Assembly (NCBI RefSeq): GCF_000226975.2
Contig: NZ_CP019285.1
Location: 3,906,001 to 3,970,000 of the forward strand
DNA from: Halobiforma lacisalsi AJ5
GTDB taxonomy: Archaea > Halobacteriota > Halobacteria > Halobacteriales > Natrialbaceae
Direction of reading: 5' to 3'
Length of the DNA: 64,000 nt
Shown here: positions 53,421-59,789 of the stretch, one piece after another
Position numbering within the stretch: position 1 is the stretch's first letter
How the letters are laid out: each line of letters begins with the position of its first letter
Position numbers and translations under genes: made by a program
Notes under the pieces: generated by a model
The model's input: only the letters and a program-made list of their open reading frames with translations
Told to the model about the DNA's origin: nothing
Databases searched by the model: none

Positions 53421-53683
53421 ATACGTTCACGGTCGATCAAACGCTACAAAAACGTGGTGTTCGACGGGCCGCGTGTCGTTCCGTTCCGTTCCGTTCCCAG
53501 TCTCCCGAATCCCGTAGTCAGCATCTCAACCCGGCAAGCTGCAAGTATTGCATGAAACCGAGAGCATTGACAAGGGTTAAGAGCGGCCGTCGGAAAACTC
53601 AGGCAACAGGGAACCCCGACGCGTCGAAGCGGACCGGACGGGCGTCCGTCGCTCGCTTCGAACCGAGGGACCTGAAGCCGACT

Positions 53684-54961
53684 ATGACAGGATCTGACGA
53701 ACCAACGAAGGCGAACGCGGAGGAAAGCGCCGTCGAGACAGCCCGTCGTCAACTCGAACGGGCCGCCGCCCACCTCGACGTCGACGAAGGGACCGTCGAG
53801 CGACTGCGGTACCCGAAGGACGTCTATCGGGTGACGATCCCGGTCGAGCGCGACGACGGGACTACGGAGATGTTCACCGGGTATCGAGCCCACCACGACA
53901 GCGTCCGCGGTCCGTTCAAGGGCGGCCTCCGCTATCACCCCGACGTCACCGAGGACGAGTGCGTCGGCCTCTCGATGTGGATGACCTGGAAGTGTGCCGT
54001 CATGGACCTCCCCTTTGGCGGGGCGAAAGGCGGGGTCGTCGTCAACCCGAAGGAGTTGAGCGCCGAGGAGAAAGAACGGCTCACCCGCCGGTTCGCCGAG
54101 GAGTTGCGTCCGGTCATTGGACCGATGAAGGACATTCCTGCGCCCGACATGGGTACCGACCCCCAGACGATGGCGTGGTTCATGGACGCCTACTCGATGC
54201 AGGAGGGTCAAACCGAGCCCGGCGTCGTCACGGGGAAGCCGCCAGTCGTCGGCGGTTCCTACGGCCGCGAAGAGGCCCCGGGCCGAAGCGTCGGCATCAT
54301 CACCCGCGAGGCGATGAAGTTCTACGGCTGGGATCCCGAGGAGACCACCGTCGCCGTCCAAGGGTTCGGTAGCGTCGGCGCGAACGCCGCCCGCTATCTC
54401 GACGACCTCGGCGCGTCGATCGTCGCCGTTTCCGACGTCGACGGCGCGATCTACGATCCCGACGGTCTCGACACCAACGACGTCGAGGACCACGACGAGA
54501 CCCCCGGAATGGTCTCGGGTTACGACGCCCCACAGAGCCTGTCGAACGAGGAACTGCTCACGCTTGACGTCGACATCCTGATCCCCGCCGCGATCGGGAA
54601 CGTCCTCACCGGCGAGAACGCCCGCGACGTCAACGCCGACATGATCGTCGAGGGCGCGAACGGGCCGACCACCTCGACGGCCGATCAGATCTTCGAGGAG
54701 CGGGAGATTCCGGTCATTCCCGATATCCTCGCGAACGCGGGCGGGGTCACCGTCTCCTACTTCGAGTGGCTCCAGGACATCAACCGCCGCTCCTGGCGAC
54801 TCGAGCGGGTCAACGAGGAACTCGAGACGGAGATGCTCCGAGCCTGGAACGCGGTCTGCGAGGAGTTCGAGAACCGCGACGTCACCTGGCGGGACGCGAC
54901 GTACATCGTCGCCCTGTCGCGGATCGCAGAGGCCCACGAGTCACGCGGTCTCTGGCCGTAA
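53684..54961 (+). CDS. gdhB: glutamate dehydrogenase
   Basis: A 425-residue hexameric-type GDH. The catalytic Lys lies in [18 protein letters not shown] (residues about 105-122), with substrate region [11 protein letters not shown], and the NAD(P)-binding [13 protein letters not shown]. It interconverts 2-oxoglutarate plus ammonia with glutamate. ATG 53684 is chosen; the longer frame adds a basic, non-conserved segment. It is one of two GDH genes flanking the putative origin. Confidence 0.93.
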
Positions 54962-55060
54962 TCAGCCGTCGTCGGATCCCGGTTGTCCGGTTTTTCGGAA
55001 CGGATCTGCACGTCGAGCGGTGACAGACGCGTCCTCACCGCATGACGCGTGGGTCGGTTC

Positions 55061-55120
55061 ACATCCACATCCACATCCACATCCACACTCACACTCACAC
55101 TCACACTCACACCCACACCC
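55061..55120. repeat. ten tandem hexamers adjoining a predicted origin box
   Basis: Four ACATCC units, four ACACTC units and two ACACCC units run directly into the first 21-base origin-like element at 55116. The arrangement of three successive unit types suggests slippage and divergence. Confidence 0.95.
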
Positions 55121-55136
55121 CTCGTTCAGAGTGAAA
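55116..55136 (+). repeat. origin-box-like element, copy 1
   Basis: Perfect copy CACCCCTCGTTCAGAGTGAA plus A, downstream of the orc1/cdc6 stop. The inner TTCAGAGTGAA is an imperfect dyad and the C-string on one side is typical of haloarchaeal ORBs. Confidence 0.75.
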
Positions 55137-55183
55137 TCGGTTTCAGGGGTCAGGACAGTCCCGTCGGGACCATCGCTCGAGAC

Positions 55184-56467
55184 TCACGAAAACGTGGAGA
55201 GGTCGACGTCCCGGTCGCGCGCACCGGTGGCGCTGTCGGCCAGTTGATCGTAGGTCGGAAGTTCCTCGAGCGAGGCGTCCCGTCGAACGGCTTTCACGAT
55301 GTGTTTGGGATCCGTGACGAGCCTGTGGAGGAGGTAACTTCCCTGTGAGCGGCCGCCGCCGGTCTTTTCGGATTCGATGACGCCGAGGAAGGCCTGTTCC
55401 TTGAGTTGGCGGTAGAGCCCGTTCTCGGTGATCGGATCCGTCGCAACGAGTTCGCAGATGCTGACGTAGCGCTCGTAGATCTCGCGAGTCTTGTACGTCT
55501 CCCGATCCCCGGTGATGATCCGGCTCGCCAGCGCGTACAGGGCGAGTTTCGCGTGGACGGTCGCGCCGCTCGTGAGTTCCTCGATCCGGTTGATCTCGGC
55601 GACCTCCTGGGCCTGCTGGATGTGGCTCTCCGAGACGTTCTCGGAGCCGGTCCGACGGGCGAGTTCGCCGGCCTCCTTCAGGATCTCGATCGCCTTGCGA
55701 GCGTCGCCGTGTTTCTTCGCGGCCAGCGCGGCACAGAGTTCGATCGTGCCGTCTTCCAGTACGCCGGGCTGGAACGCGTCCTCGCGGTTTCGCATGATCT
55801 CCCGGAGCTGGGAGGCGTCGTAGGGGTGAAAGAAGAGTTCGCGATGGCCGAAGCTGCTGTCGATGCGTTCGTCCAGCGTCTCCCGGTACTTGACCTTGTT
55901 ACTGATGCCGATGACACCGATGTAGGCGTCGGTCTTCCGTGCCTCGCGGGCCCGGGAGAGTTGCATCAGAATGTTACTATTGTCGAGTTTGTCGATCTCG
56001 TCGAGGATGACGATGGTGGCATCGAAAAAACCCTCGAGGATGTCCCAGATGTGCTGGTAGTACTCCATCGTTCCCACGCCCCGAACCGGGATGTTGTCGT
56101 CGTAGCCGGTCTGGTCTTTCAGACTGAGCGCCATCTGCCGTGTCGCGCGGGTTTCCGTGTTCGCCTCGGAGCAGTCGACGTAGAGCACGCCGCAGTCGAT
56201 GTCGTTGCTGCGGGCGGCGTCCTGTGCCCGTGTCGCGACGTGACGGGAGATAAGACTCTTTCCGGTTCCCGTTTTGCCGTAGATCATCACGTTGTTCGGC
56301 GGATCCCCCCGAGTGATGGCCCCGACCTCCGCGGCGACGGACTGGATCTCGTCGTCCCGACCGACGATCCGATCCTCATCGGGGACGTGACCGACGTGGA
56401 GGAGTTCCTTCCGATTGAAGATCGGATCGTGTGATTGGAACAACGGGTCCCCTGCCTGGTCAGCCAT
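55184..56467 (-). CDS. orc1: Orc1/Cdc6 replication initiator
   Basis: A 427-residue AAA+ initiator. Walker A is GKTGTGKS at residues 64-71 (MIYGKTGTGKSLI), Walker B ILDEID at 154-159, sensor 1 is IGVIGISNKV, and the C-terminal winged helix runs from about residue 325 to 410 (LKEQAFLGVIESEKTGGG). It should recognise ORB elements, load MCM helicase and be regulated by ATP. ATG 56467 reads divergently away from the repeat-rich region upstream, which contains three more ORB-like copies. Confidence 0.96.
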   Translation of the reverse strand: MADQAGDPLFQSHDPIFNRKELLHVGHVPDEDRIVGRDDEIQSVAAEVGAITRGDPPNNVMIYGKTGTGKSLISRHVATRAQDAARSNDIDCGVLYVDCSEANTETRATRQMALSLKDQTGYDDNIPVRGVGTMEYYQHIWDILEGFFDATIVILDEIDKLDNSNILMQLSRAREARKTDAYIGVIGISNKVKYRETLDERIDSSFGHRELFFHPYDASQLREIMRNREDAFQPGVLEDGTIELCAALAAKKHGDARKAIEILKEAGELARRTGSENVSESHIQQAQEVAEINRIEELTSGATVHAKLALYALASRIITGDRETYKTREIYERYVSICELVATDPITENGLYRQLKEQAFLGVIESEKTGGGRSQGSYLLHRLVTDPKHIVKAVRRDASLEELPTYDQLADSATGARDRDVDLSTFS

Positions 56468-56628
56468 ATCTCCGTGCTCGAAGAGCGACCTAATAAAAGT
56501 ATGGAAGGTAGTTCAGACTGATATCCTCGAGGTAGACGTTTTTACACGCATCGTCTCGGAGCCTCCTCCGATCCGTTCCGTCCCCCCGAATGCAGACTGA
56601 ATTGCTCCTCCACTAGCCGCGGCCCCCG

Positions 56629-56649
56629 CACCCCTCGTTCAGAGTGAAA
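56629..56649 (+). repeat. origin-box-like element, copy 2
   Basis: Perfect copy of the 21-base element, on the same strand as copy 1, between the orc1 start and the AT-rich tract. Confidence 0.75.
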
Positions 56650-56891
56650 GCGGTTTCGAAAGCGGTGGTCCGAACGCGACGGTGGACCGCCCACGAGACG
56701 ATTACCGAAGTATCACGCGCCGTCGACACCAGCCCGGTACCGTCTTCGTGCCGTCTGCGTGATCTTCTAACACTCCGGAAGAAGAGTCACTCCTCGAGAA
56801 TCTCGAGAGAGACCGTTCCTCTTCGACCGAATTCCGCGGTCCGGGAGCGATCGTAAGTGTGGGTTCGATCCCCATACAACATCCGGGACGC

Positions 56892-56970
56892 CTCTAGATA
56901 ATTCTTATATTTTACTAATACAGCAACAATATCTTATTCTTATCTAGCTAGTTCTAGATCTAGATAGTGA
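56892..56970. other. AT-rich tract, candidate duplex-unwinding element
   Basis: Strongly AT-rich, including TTATATTTTACTAATACAGC and TATCTTATTCTTATCTAGC, with a 12-base perfect palindrome TCTAGATCTAGA at 56953-56964. It lies between origin-box copies that face inwards from both sides. Confidence 0.55.
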
Positions 56971-57079
56971 ATGAGAGAGTCGATTGGGAATCCACTCCAA
57001 CGTAACCACAACAGCTCTTCAAATCTCCCCGGTCTCCGATCGAGTCCGTCTCGAGAGACCGATCCCCTCTCGAGAGCGT

Positions 57080-57100
57080 TTTCACTCTGAACGAAGGGTG
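57080..57100 (-). repeat. origin-box-like element, copy 3 (inverted)
   Basis: Reverse-complement copy with one difference in the G-string (GAAGGG instead of GAGGGG). Confidence 0.7.
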
Positions 57101-57145
57101 GGAGACGGCAGCCGTGATCCACCTTCCTTGCTAGTCCAAACCACA

Positions 57146-57166
57146 CACCCCCTATTCAGAGTGAAA
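57146..57166 (+). repeat. origin-box-like element, copy 4 (degenerate)
   Basis: Dyad core TTCAGAGTGAAA is intact; the C-string is shifted (CACCCCCTA), three differences from the consensus. Confidence 0.6.
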
Positions 57167-57251
57167 ACGAAACCAGTTCGTCGCCAGCGCTCTCCGGCGA
57201 ATCGGACCCAGTCGAAATAGTCGGCCGAACCCCCTCCCTCGCCGATCCGGT

Positions 57252-57272
57252 TTTCACTCTGAACGAGGGGTG
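57252..57272 (-). repeat. origin-box-like element, copy 5 (inverted)
   Basis: Perfect reverse-complement copy of the 21-base element, closing the repeat cluster on the side of the CitE-like gene. Confidence 0.75.
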
Positions 57273-57513: not shown

Positions 57514-58371
57514 ATGGTCCGCAGAAGCGTACTGTTCACGCCCGGTGATCGTCCAGAAATGCTCCGGAAGGCTCCCCGCGCGGGAGCCGACGTGATCGTC
57601 TTCGACCTCGAGGACGCCGTCGCCCCCGCCCGGAAGGACGAGGCCCGTGAGGCCGTCCGCGACGTCCTCGCCGATCCCGAGTTCGACCCCGACTGCGAGG
57701 TCTGTGTCCGGGTCAACGCAACACTCGACGTGATCGAGGACGACCTCGAGGCTCTGTTCGCGGACGGCACGGAGCTCACGATAGACAGTGTGATGCTCCC
57801 GAAGGCCAACTCGGCCGAGGACGTCGATCGACTCGAGTCGGTCCTCGAGGGCCACGGTGTCTCGCTGCCCGTTCTCGCGCTGATCGAGAGCGCGGCCGGC
57901 GTCCTTACGGCGTCGGAAATCGCGGCTCACCCTGCCACCGACGCGGTGGCGTTCGGCGCGGAGGACCTCTCGGCGGACGTCGGGGCGACGGTCTCGGACG
58001 ATCGCTCGGAACTGAGTTACGCGCGCCAGCGGGTCGTCCTCGCAGCCGCTGCCCACGACTGTACGGCGATCGACACGCTGGTCACCGACTTTCAGGACGA
58101 AGAACGACTCCGGGAGGACGCTCGTCGGTCTGTTCGGCTCGGTTACGACGGCAAACTCGCGATCCACCCGGCACAGGTCGACCCGATCAACGAGGCGTTC
58201 ACGCCCGACGAATCCGACCTCGAGTGGGCCGAACGCGTCCTCGAGGCCAAACGCGAGGCCGATGCGGAGGGTCGAGGCGTCTTCGAAGTCGATGGGGAGA
58301 TGATCGACGCGCCGTTGATCGCCCAGGCGGAACGGATCGTCGCCCGAGCCGAGGCAGCGGATCGGCGGTAG
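57514..58371 (+). CDS. citE: HpcH/HpaI-family CitE-like lyase (malyl-CoA/beta-methylmalyl-CoA lyase type)
   Basis: A 285-residue TIM-barrel CoA-ester lyase. It shows RSVLFTPGDRPEML, VIVFDLEDAVAPARKDEAR, CVRVNA (Arg), and LALIESAAGVLTASEIA with catalytic/metal acids, then AFGAEDLSADVG. The family includes citrate lyase beta, L-malyl-CoA/beta-methylmalyl-CoA lyase and malyl-CoA thioesterase of haloarchaea. Given its neighbours (MaoC, glutamate dehydrogenases, carboxyltransferase) the methylaspartate-cycle role is plausible, but substrate specificity cannot be fixed by eye. Confidence 0.87.
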   Translation: MVRRSVLFTPGDRPEMLRKAPRAGADVIVFDLEDAVAPARKDEAREAVRDVLADPEFDPDCEVCVRVNATLDVIEDDLEALFADGTELTIDSVMLPKANSAEDVDRLESVLEGHGVSLPVLALIESAAGVLTASEIAAHPATDAVAFGAEDLSADVGATVSDDRSELSYARQRVVLAAAAHDCTAIDTLVTDFQDEERLREDARRSVRLGYDGKLAIHPAQVDPINEAFTPDESDLEWAERVLEAKREADAEGRGVFEVDGEMIDAPLIAQAERIVARAEAADRR

Positions 58372-58532: not shown

Positions 58533-59789
58533 ATGAGCGAACAAGCAAATCCGTTCGAGACGTTACAGTCCCAGATCGACGAGGCTGCGAACCACCTCGA
58601 GATCGGCGACGACGTGATCGAACGGCTCAAACATCCGGAACGGGTCCTCGAAACGAACCTGACGATCGAGCGCGACGACGGAGACCTCGAGCGGTTCAAG
58701 GCCTTCCGCTCGCAGTTCAACGGCGACCGCGGCCCCTACAAGGGCGGTATCCGGTACCACCCGGCAGTCAGCCGCGACGAAGTGAAGGCACTGTCCGGCT
58801 GGATGGTATACAAGTGTGCGGTGGTCGATATCCCCTACGGCGGCGGGAAAGGCGGTATCGTCGTCGACCCGAGCGAGTACTCCGAGAGCGAACTCGAGCG
58901 GCTCACCCGCGCGTTCGCGACGGAACTGCGACCGCTGATCGGTGAGGATCGAGACATCCCCGCGCCCGACGTGAACACGGGCCAGCGGGAGATGAACTGG
59001 ATCAAGGATACCTACGAGACGCTGGAAAACACCACCGAGCCTGGCGTCATCACGGGCAAGAACATCGCCAGCGGCGGCAGCGAGGGCCGGGTCGAAGCGA
59101 CCGGGCGCTCGACCGTGATCGCGGCCCGCGAGGCCTTCGACTACCTCGACAAGGACCTCGAGGGCGCGACCGTCGCCGTCCAGGGGTACGGGAACGCCGG
59201 CTGGATTGCGGCGAAACTGATCGACGAGATGGGGGCAACCGTCGTCGCCGTCAGCGACTCCAGCGGTGGGATCTACGACCCTGACGGCTTCGACCCGGCC
59301 GCGGCGAAACAGCACAAAAACGAGACCGGCAGCGTCGTCGGCTTCCCGGGGAGCGACGAGGAGATCACCAACGAGGACCTGCTTACGCTAGACGTCGACC
59401 TTCTGATCCCCGCCGCGCTCGAGAACGCGATCGACGGCGACCTCGCCCGCGAGGTCGAGGCGGACGTCATCTCCGAGGCCGCGAACGGTCCGCTGACGCC
59501 CGAGGCCGACCAGGTACTCGAGGACGAGGACGTCTTCGTCGTCCCGGACATCCTGGCGAACGCGGGCGGCGTCACGGTCTCGTACTTCGAGTGGGTCCAG
59601 AACCGCCAGCGGTTCTACTGGTCCGAAGAGAAGGTCAACACGGAACTCGAGGAACACATCGTCGAGGCCTTCGACTCGCTCGTCGAGACGATCGAGGCCC
59701 ACGACCTCGATAACCCCCGGACTGCGGCGTACGTGGTGGCGATCCAGCGGGTTGCGGACGCGTTCGAAGAAGCGGGCTCGTTCCCCTGA
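58533..59789 (+). CDS. gdhA: glutamate dehydrogenase, second copy
   Basis: A 418-residue GDH, paralogue of the gene at 53684. [19 protein letters not shown] carries the catalytic Lys; [11 protein letters not shown] is the substrate region and [16 protein letters not shown] is the cofactor loop. The cofactor loop differs from that of the other GDH (GYGNAG versus GFGSVG), suggesting different NAD/NADP preference. An AT-rich promoter lies at 58440-58510. The pair brackets the putative origin and CitE-like gene. Confidence 0.94.

Follow-up and report, generated by a model that had tools for sequence, protein, structure and literature searches.

A predicted orc1/cdc6-associated replication origin with its own class of recognition elements in Halobiforma lacisalsi and other Natrialbaceae

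Does an orc1/cdc6 gene accompanied by several copies of a short dyad element mark a replication origin in the chromosome of Halobiforma lacisalsi AJ5, and do gene and element form a pair with a recognition specificity of its own? Both suggestions came from an earlier reading of the sequence alone (the sequence-only reading) of the window, i.e., the whole 64-kb stretch analyzed here, which corresponds to positions 3906001-3970000 of the chromosome (C1). Judged by its structure, the locus is in all likelihood an Orc-dependent, orc1/cdc6-associated chromosomal origin that forms a self-contained replicator-initiator pair, and it is very probably one of several origins of this chromosome. An orc1/cdc6 gene with its own origin recognition boxes (ORBs) is an arrangement of a known kind: Wu et al. 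(2012; PMC3528665) predicted 102 origins of this type among 15 haloarchaea and described the linkage between Orc and ORB.

Anatomy of the locus

From left to right in the window, the locus is made up of the following parts:

53552..54961, + strand: gdh1, glutamate dehydrogenase-type gene (named from its sequence), conserved downstream neighbor by synteny
55116..55136, + strand: perfect ORB copy downstream of orc1/cdc6, where this gene and gdh1 converge with their 3′ ends
55184..56467, - strand: orc1/cdc6 initiator gene, 427 aa, AAA+ plus winged-helix
56582..56602, + strand: weak sixth ORB-like copy, CCCCCCGAATGCAGACTGAAT, matrix score 15.5
56629..56649, + strand: proximal upstream ORB, perfect, facing the 57080 copy across the AT tract
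56890..56970, no strand: AT-rich tract, candidate unwinding element, with five CTAG (56894, 56944, 56948, 56954, 56960)
57080..57100, - strand: distal upstream ORB with a single mismatch, paired in inverted orientation with 56629
57146..57166, + strand: upstream ORB in which the core is perfect and the linker altered, score 35.2
57252..57272, - strand: outermost upstream ORB, perfect and inverted, score 39.1
57514..58371, + strand: citE-like gene of the HpcH/HpaI aldolase/citrate lyase family, conserved upstream neighbor (profiles and synteny)
58533..59789, + strand: gdh2, second glutamate dehydrogenase-type gene, conserved outer neighbor (synteny)

The reverse-strand reading frame encodes a full-length Orc1/Cdc6 protein with AAA+, lid and winged-helix domains, well above 300 residues and lying directly beside ORBs. 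It is matched by the Orc profile TIGR02928 (E 1.5e-117) and, above cut-off, by Cdc6_lid and Cdc6_C, and a Walker A motif (GKTGTGKS) and a Walker B motif (DEID) are visible in the alignment. Its best structural relatives are Sulfolobus Cdc6-1 (2QBY_A) and Aeropyrum Orc1 (2V1U_A), with homology extending over the AAA+ and winged-helix domains; no phage relatives of this Orc were found.

By inspection, the element is of the ORB type, in which a CGA linker joins a TTC(N5)GAA dyad to an outward G-string (TTCACTCTGAA-CGA-GGGGTG when read on the opposite strand), so that the form ascribed to it beforehand is upheld. The canonical archaeal ORB is TTCCAGTGGAAACGAAGGGGT, and the order of dyad, linker and G-string appears from the sequence to be the very layout of archaeal ORBs. 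The Sulfolobus and Aeropyrum ORBs presumably share this layout of dyad, CGA and G-string with the Halobiforma element, but the five bases of the dyad center differ and the halophile G-string is longer.

Five copies had been proposed, and their positions proved exact: the 20-mer CACCCCTCGTTCAGAGTGAA has exactly five matches in the window at up to three mismatches, and zero matches in 100 dinucleotide shuffles. The copy at 57146, which the sequence-only reading called degenerate, is present with three mismatches, but its core TTCAGAGTGAA is perfect and the linker alone is altered. A 21-position weight matrix derived from orthologous loci assigns scores of 34-39 to these five copies and 15.5 to the weak sixth at 56582(+), and detects nothing beyond those six in the 64 kb; not a single position reaches a score of 24 in 100 Mb of simulated third-order Markov sequence. 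Five orthologous loci (L030-L033 and L062) have a similarly weak copy, at -131 to -135 relative to the start of orc. The whole-genome scan that had been suggested (4.38 Mb, including the 4.16-Mb chromosome) yielded merely three further matches at up to three mismatches. A literature search for the core sequence returned unrelated primers only, and neither Rfam RNAs nor rRNA were found in the window.

The copies are present in both orientations within the intergenic regions beside orc, and the copy at 55116(+) does lie past the 3′ end of the gene. A simple CACATC/CACTCA repeat (window 55060-55115) directly abuts this downstream ORB. The claim that copies face each other across an AT-rich tract is likewise borne out: 80 bp at 56895, located between 56629(+) and 57080(-), are 75% AT, with the G-strings facing away from this candidate unwinding element. 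In 27 of the 34 orthologous loci the AT maximum falls inside the facing ORB pair. The same interval is rich in CTAG, which occurs there at 6.3 per kb vs 0.32 per kb elsewhere in orthologous loci (110 observed vs 70 +/- 7 in dinucleotide shuffles) and at least once in 31/34 loci; at the Halobiforma origin the cluster spans window 56894-56963. Within the same genome, six CTAG lie between the ORBs of oriC1 (L020:255-387; P 0.007) and four between those of the origin of the C2 plasmid (L009:2807-2934; P 0.03), and genes for N6_N4 methylases, which bear on the question of a CTAG methylase, are present. High CTAG density at haloarchaeal origins has already been reported (Blow et al., as cited in PMC5867850), and the cluster is thus independent support rather than a discovery.

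Linkage of the ORB core to the Orc clade

The sequence-only reading had also raised the possibility of a cognate Orc1-ORB pair of a separate specificity class, which would have been doubtful had the motif been common away from orc genes. In 41 genomes of relatives, 40 of the 45 matches with at most two mismatches, counted by hand, are no more than 4 kb away from an orc gene. The pattern CCCNNNRTTCAGASTGW has matches in all 30 tested genomes that carry the orthologue, mostly at the locus itself, and one match each in five of 15 genomes that lack it, with the reversed pattern serving as a control (one match in 45 genomes). Most relatives without the orthologue lack the element, and a relic locus, a sister Orc and isolated weaker matches account for the exceptions. 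The other ORB-bearing Orc paralogues of the same genome are associated with different elements, and the sister Orc clade (~54% identical) has an ORB core TCCAGAGTGAA or TCAAGAGTGTA instead of TTCAGAGTGAA. The element travels with the orthologue group and its core shifts with the Orc clade; the proposed class is supported, the ORB sequence being specific to the adjacent Orc family.

Most of these properties recur in the non-oriC1 origins of Wu et al. (2012; PMC3528665, available in part), where inverted G-string ORBs lie in orc1/cdc6 intergenic regions with an AT-rich core, ORBs are linked to Orc families and sometimes flank the gene on both sides. Haloterrigena turkmenica and Natrialba magadii were among the species of that dataset, and since both carry this Orc family, the family was probably predicted before. 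What differs is the wide survey of the family, the relic locus and the distal ORBs described below, none of which was found in the available part of that paper.

On the Halobiforma chromosome, orc genes with ORB-like repeats close by are found at five loci (0.977, 1.55, 2.33, 3.06 and 3.96 Mb), which are spread around the 4.16 Mb at intervals of about 0.57-1.18 Mb. The one at 977 kb, with CACTTGAAACGAAGGGGTGG-type ORBs, is the oriC1-like locus of this genome. The insert in the Orc encoded there was considered as an intein and rejected, as it is a low-complexity acidic linker.

Retention and loss in the Natrialbaceae, and plasmid relatives

An orthologue with at least 83% identity is encoded in 59 of the 125 Natrialbaceae genomes, in a single copy except in one genome, and is lacking from the remaining 66. 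This distribution does not fit an ancestral oriC1, whose Orc would be conserved in all haloarchaea together with a canonical ORB core, and that identification was rejected. Orc and ORBs form a stable pair that about half of the family has kept. The protein is 100% identical to that of Halobiforma haloterrestris, a close relative of the source organism, and identity among Natrialbaceae (89-97%) exceeds that of most neighboring genes. The order gdh2-citE-ORBs-orc-ORB-gdh1 is widely retained in many genera, with citE or gdh1 missing from the locus in some of them. In all 34 orthologous loci a facing ORB pair precedes orc in the same orientation, with the proximal ORB at about -170 to -340 from the gene and its partner further upstream, and in 32 of them an ORB lies just past the orc stop codon.

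One genome (G053) lacks the orthologue, yet it retains gdh2, citE and gdh1 in order, and the 370-bp gap at the site of the origin (L129:6338-6711; C1 near 2836524) contains three ORB cores, of which one is perfect and two have decayed. Its sequence identifies this locus as an origin whose initiator was lost and whose ORBs are decaying in place. With 66 genomes devoid of the orthologue and one bearing a relic, the origin is dispensable in evolution.

Three further observations were made among the relatives. In Natronorubrum bangense (G123) at least 79 kb including this origin (C1 from 255886 to at least 335000) are also present, inverted and 100% identical, on the 828-kb plasmid C2, which is due either to duplication in the very recent past or to an artefact of the assembly. 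Natronococcus pandeyae has six tandem copies of CAACCCTCGTTCAGCCCGAACA with a 27-bp period beside a perfect ORB (L054:2221-2377), and these look like amplified degenerate ORBs. A 1.47-kb segment with an ORB-like match is 92% identical in two distant genera (G054:C1 near 3027038 and G019:C2 near 444910) and is possibly a mobile element.

The sister Orc clade includes many plasmid initiators. For instance, the 96-kb plasmid pJ7-1 of Natrinema has a sole orc match with seven sister-type ORBs upstream. Replicators of the pJ7-1 type resemble the Halobiforma locus in their ORBs (CACCCCTCGTCCAGAGTGAAA, with an inverted copy upstream of orc), but differ from it by the shifted dyad core mentioned above and by being located on plasmids without gdh synteny, whereas the Halobiforma pair is chromosomal and has this synteny. 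A plasmid of Halobellus ramosii encodes a 75%-identical Orc relative with the TTCAGAGTGAA element and ORBs on both sides. Because the sister Orc families with a shifted core are plasmid initiators, the sequences suggest that the locus is probably a plasmid-type replicator-initiator pair captured by an ancestral Natrialbaceae chromosome, which many lineages have kept and others lost.

Predicted function, alternatives and distal sites

The mechanism that we infer begins with the binding of Orc (55184-56467) to the ORBs, with the TTC(N5)GAA dyad contacted by the winged helix and the outward G-string by the AAA+ domain. Once bound at 56629 and 57080, the two facing copies, the protein would distort the AT- and CTAG-rich tract in between, where the DNA would open and MCM would then be loaded, with the outer ORBs 57146 and 57252 adding to the assembly. 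At oriC1 of Haloarcula hispanica, mutating either the C6 or the G8 run abolishes function, and the G-strings there likewise point out from the AT tract (PMC3936714). The single downstream ORB 55116 may titrate the initiator, by analogy with H. hispanica oriC2-cdc6E and its oriC2D, where ORBs also occur both upstream and downstream of orc and the downstream ones titrate the initiator (PMC3936714). However, eleven downstream ORBs are found in that case and one here, and oriC2 has another Orc and, presumably, another ORB core.

Whether such an origin fires is a separate matter, as dormancy or deficiency in vivo has been found for several of the origins predicted in haloarchaea (PMC3936714; PMC4595724) and origin structure is consequently no proof of firing. 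We consider it rather probable that the predicted origin would fire in normal growth. It is also possible, albeit not likely, that the intact pair is bound by Orc and serves as a backup only, while the chromosome fires from oriC1 or others; the four additional ORB-bearing orc loci on the same chromosome, the loss of the orthologue in many relatives and the documented existence of dormant origins, with Haloferax mediterranei as an example (PMC4595724), are in line with such dormancy, but Orc, the ORB pair, the AT tract and the CTAG cluster have long been conserved across the family, which argues against it. Dormancy would be a sub-case of the structural claim, so the confidences attached to the readings sum to more than one. 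The GC skew that had been proposed as a check showed no inflection, either across the 324 kb that surround the locus or in 20 stretches sampled, which fits dormancy too, although skew is a weak proxy and uninformative in a multi-origin chromosome. Primers of the Natrinema J7 ARS vectors (PMC5350488), compared in order to learn whether this family had already been assayed for autonomous replication, have no match in the orthologous loci; one of them has a single two-mismatch match among the 125 genomes, at an unrelated place ~345 kb from orc (G060).

It is very unlikely that the repeats are instead operators through which Orc or another regulator controls orc and its neighbors. The upstream copies do lie between the divergent orc and citE-like genes, where either promoter could be affected, and a distal single copy (site A, below) is found 75 bp upstream of a NUDIX gene. 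The downstream copy is not a promoter operator, since a promoter is not to be expected where two genes converge with their 3′ ends, and the facing pair, the AT/CTAG tract and the outward G-string match origins; moreover, the citE-like gene is absent from several Natrinema loci, in which the ORBs are nevertheless present. The plasmid relationships of the sister Orc families and of the Halobellus ramosii relative could also point to the remnant of an integrated plasmid or mobile element with a replicator that no longer functions. This seems extremely improbable in view of the synteny between metabolic genes in many genera and of the high conservation of Orc and ORBs, as a dead remnant would decay in the way visible in G053. 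A structurally intact origin remains our preferred reading.

Two solitary ORBs are situated far from any orc gene: site A (C1:11450-11469), upstream of the NUDIX gene, and site B (C1:3590782-3590801), downstream of a cysteine synthase-like gene. Their location, 210 and 372 kb from the origin, respectively, together with their conservation, is new and unexplained. Both are conserved in three Halobiforma genomes with this orc (the source genome, G001 and G004; scores 28-33, the like of which do not occur in the 100 Mb of simulated sequence). They are missing from G002 and G003, two congeners that lack the gene, and from the other genera examined. Being confined to these three genomes, they were rejected as general features of the family. 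Site A forms a conserved island in an otherwise diverged intergenic region, and site B follows the same gene in relatives at 30 vs 105 bp. Similar single sites are present in G081, G120 and G023, which carry orc as well, the overall enrichment over genomes without orc not being firm. Selective maintenance of sites A and B for distal titration or regulation, as an archaeal analogue of the bacterial DnaA sites datA/DARS, is a speculative and rather doubtful suggestion, the evidence coming from three closely related genomes.

If bound, distal single ORBs would be without precedent in archaea, judging from the literature searched. A clean Orc-ORB class with a sister group differing at defined bases makes an archaeal origin-recognition code testable. 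Finally, the plasmid-type sisters, the fixed chromosomal site and the decaying locus without orc trace what was likely the capture and loss of a replicon within one family.
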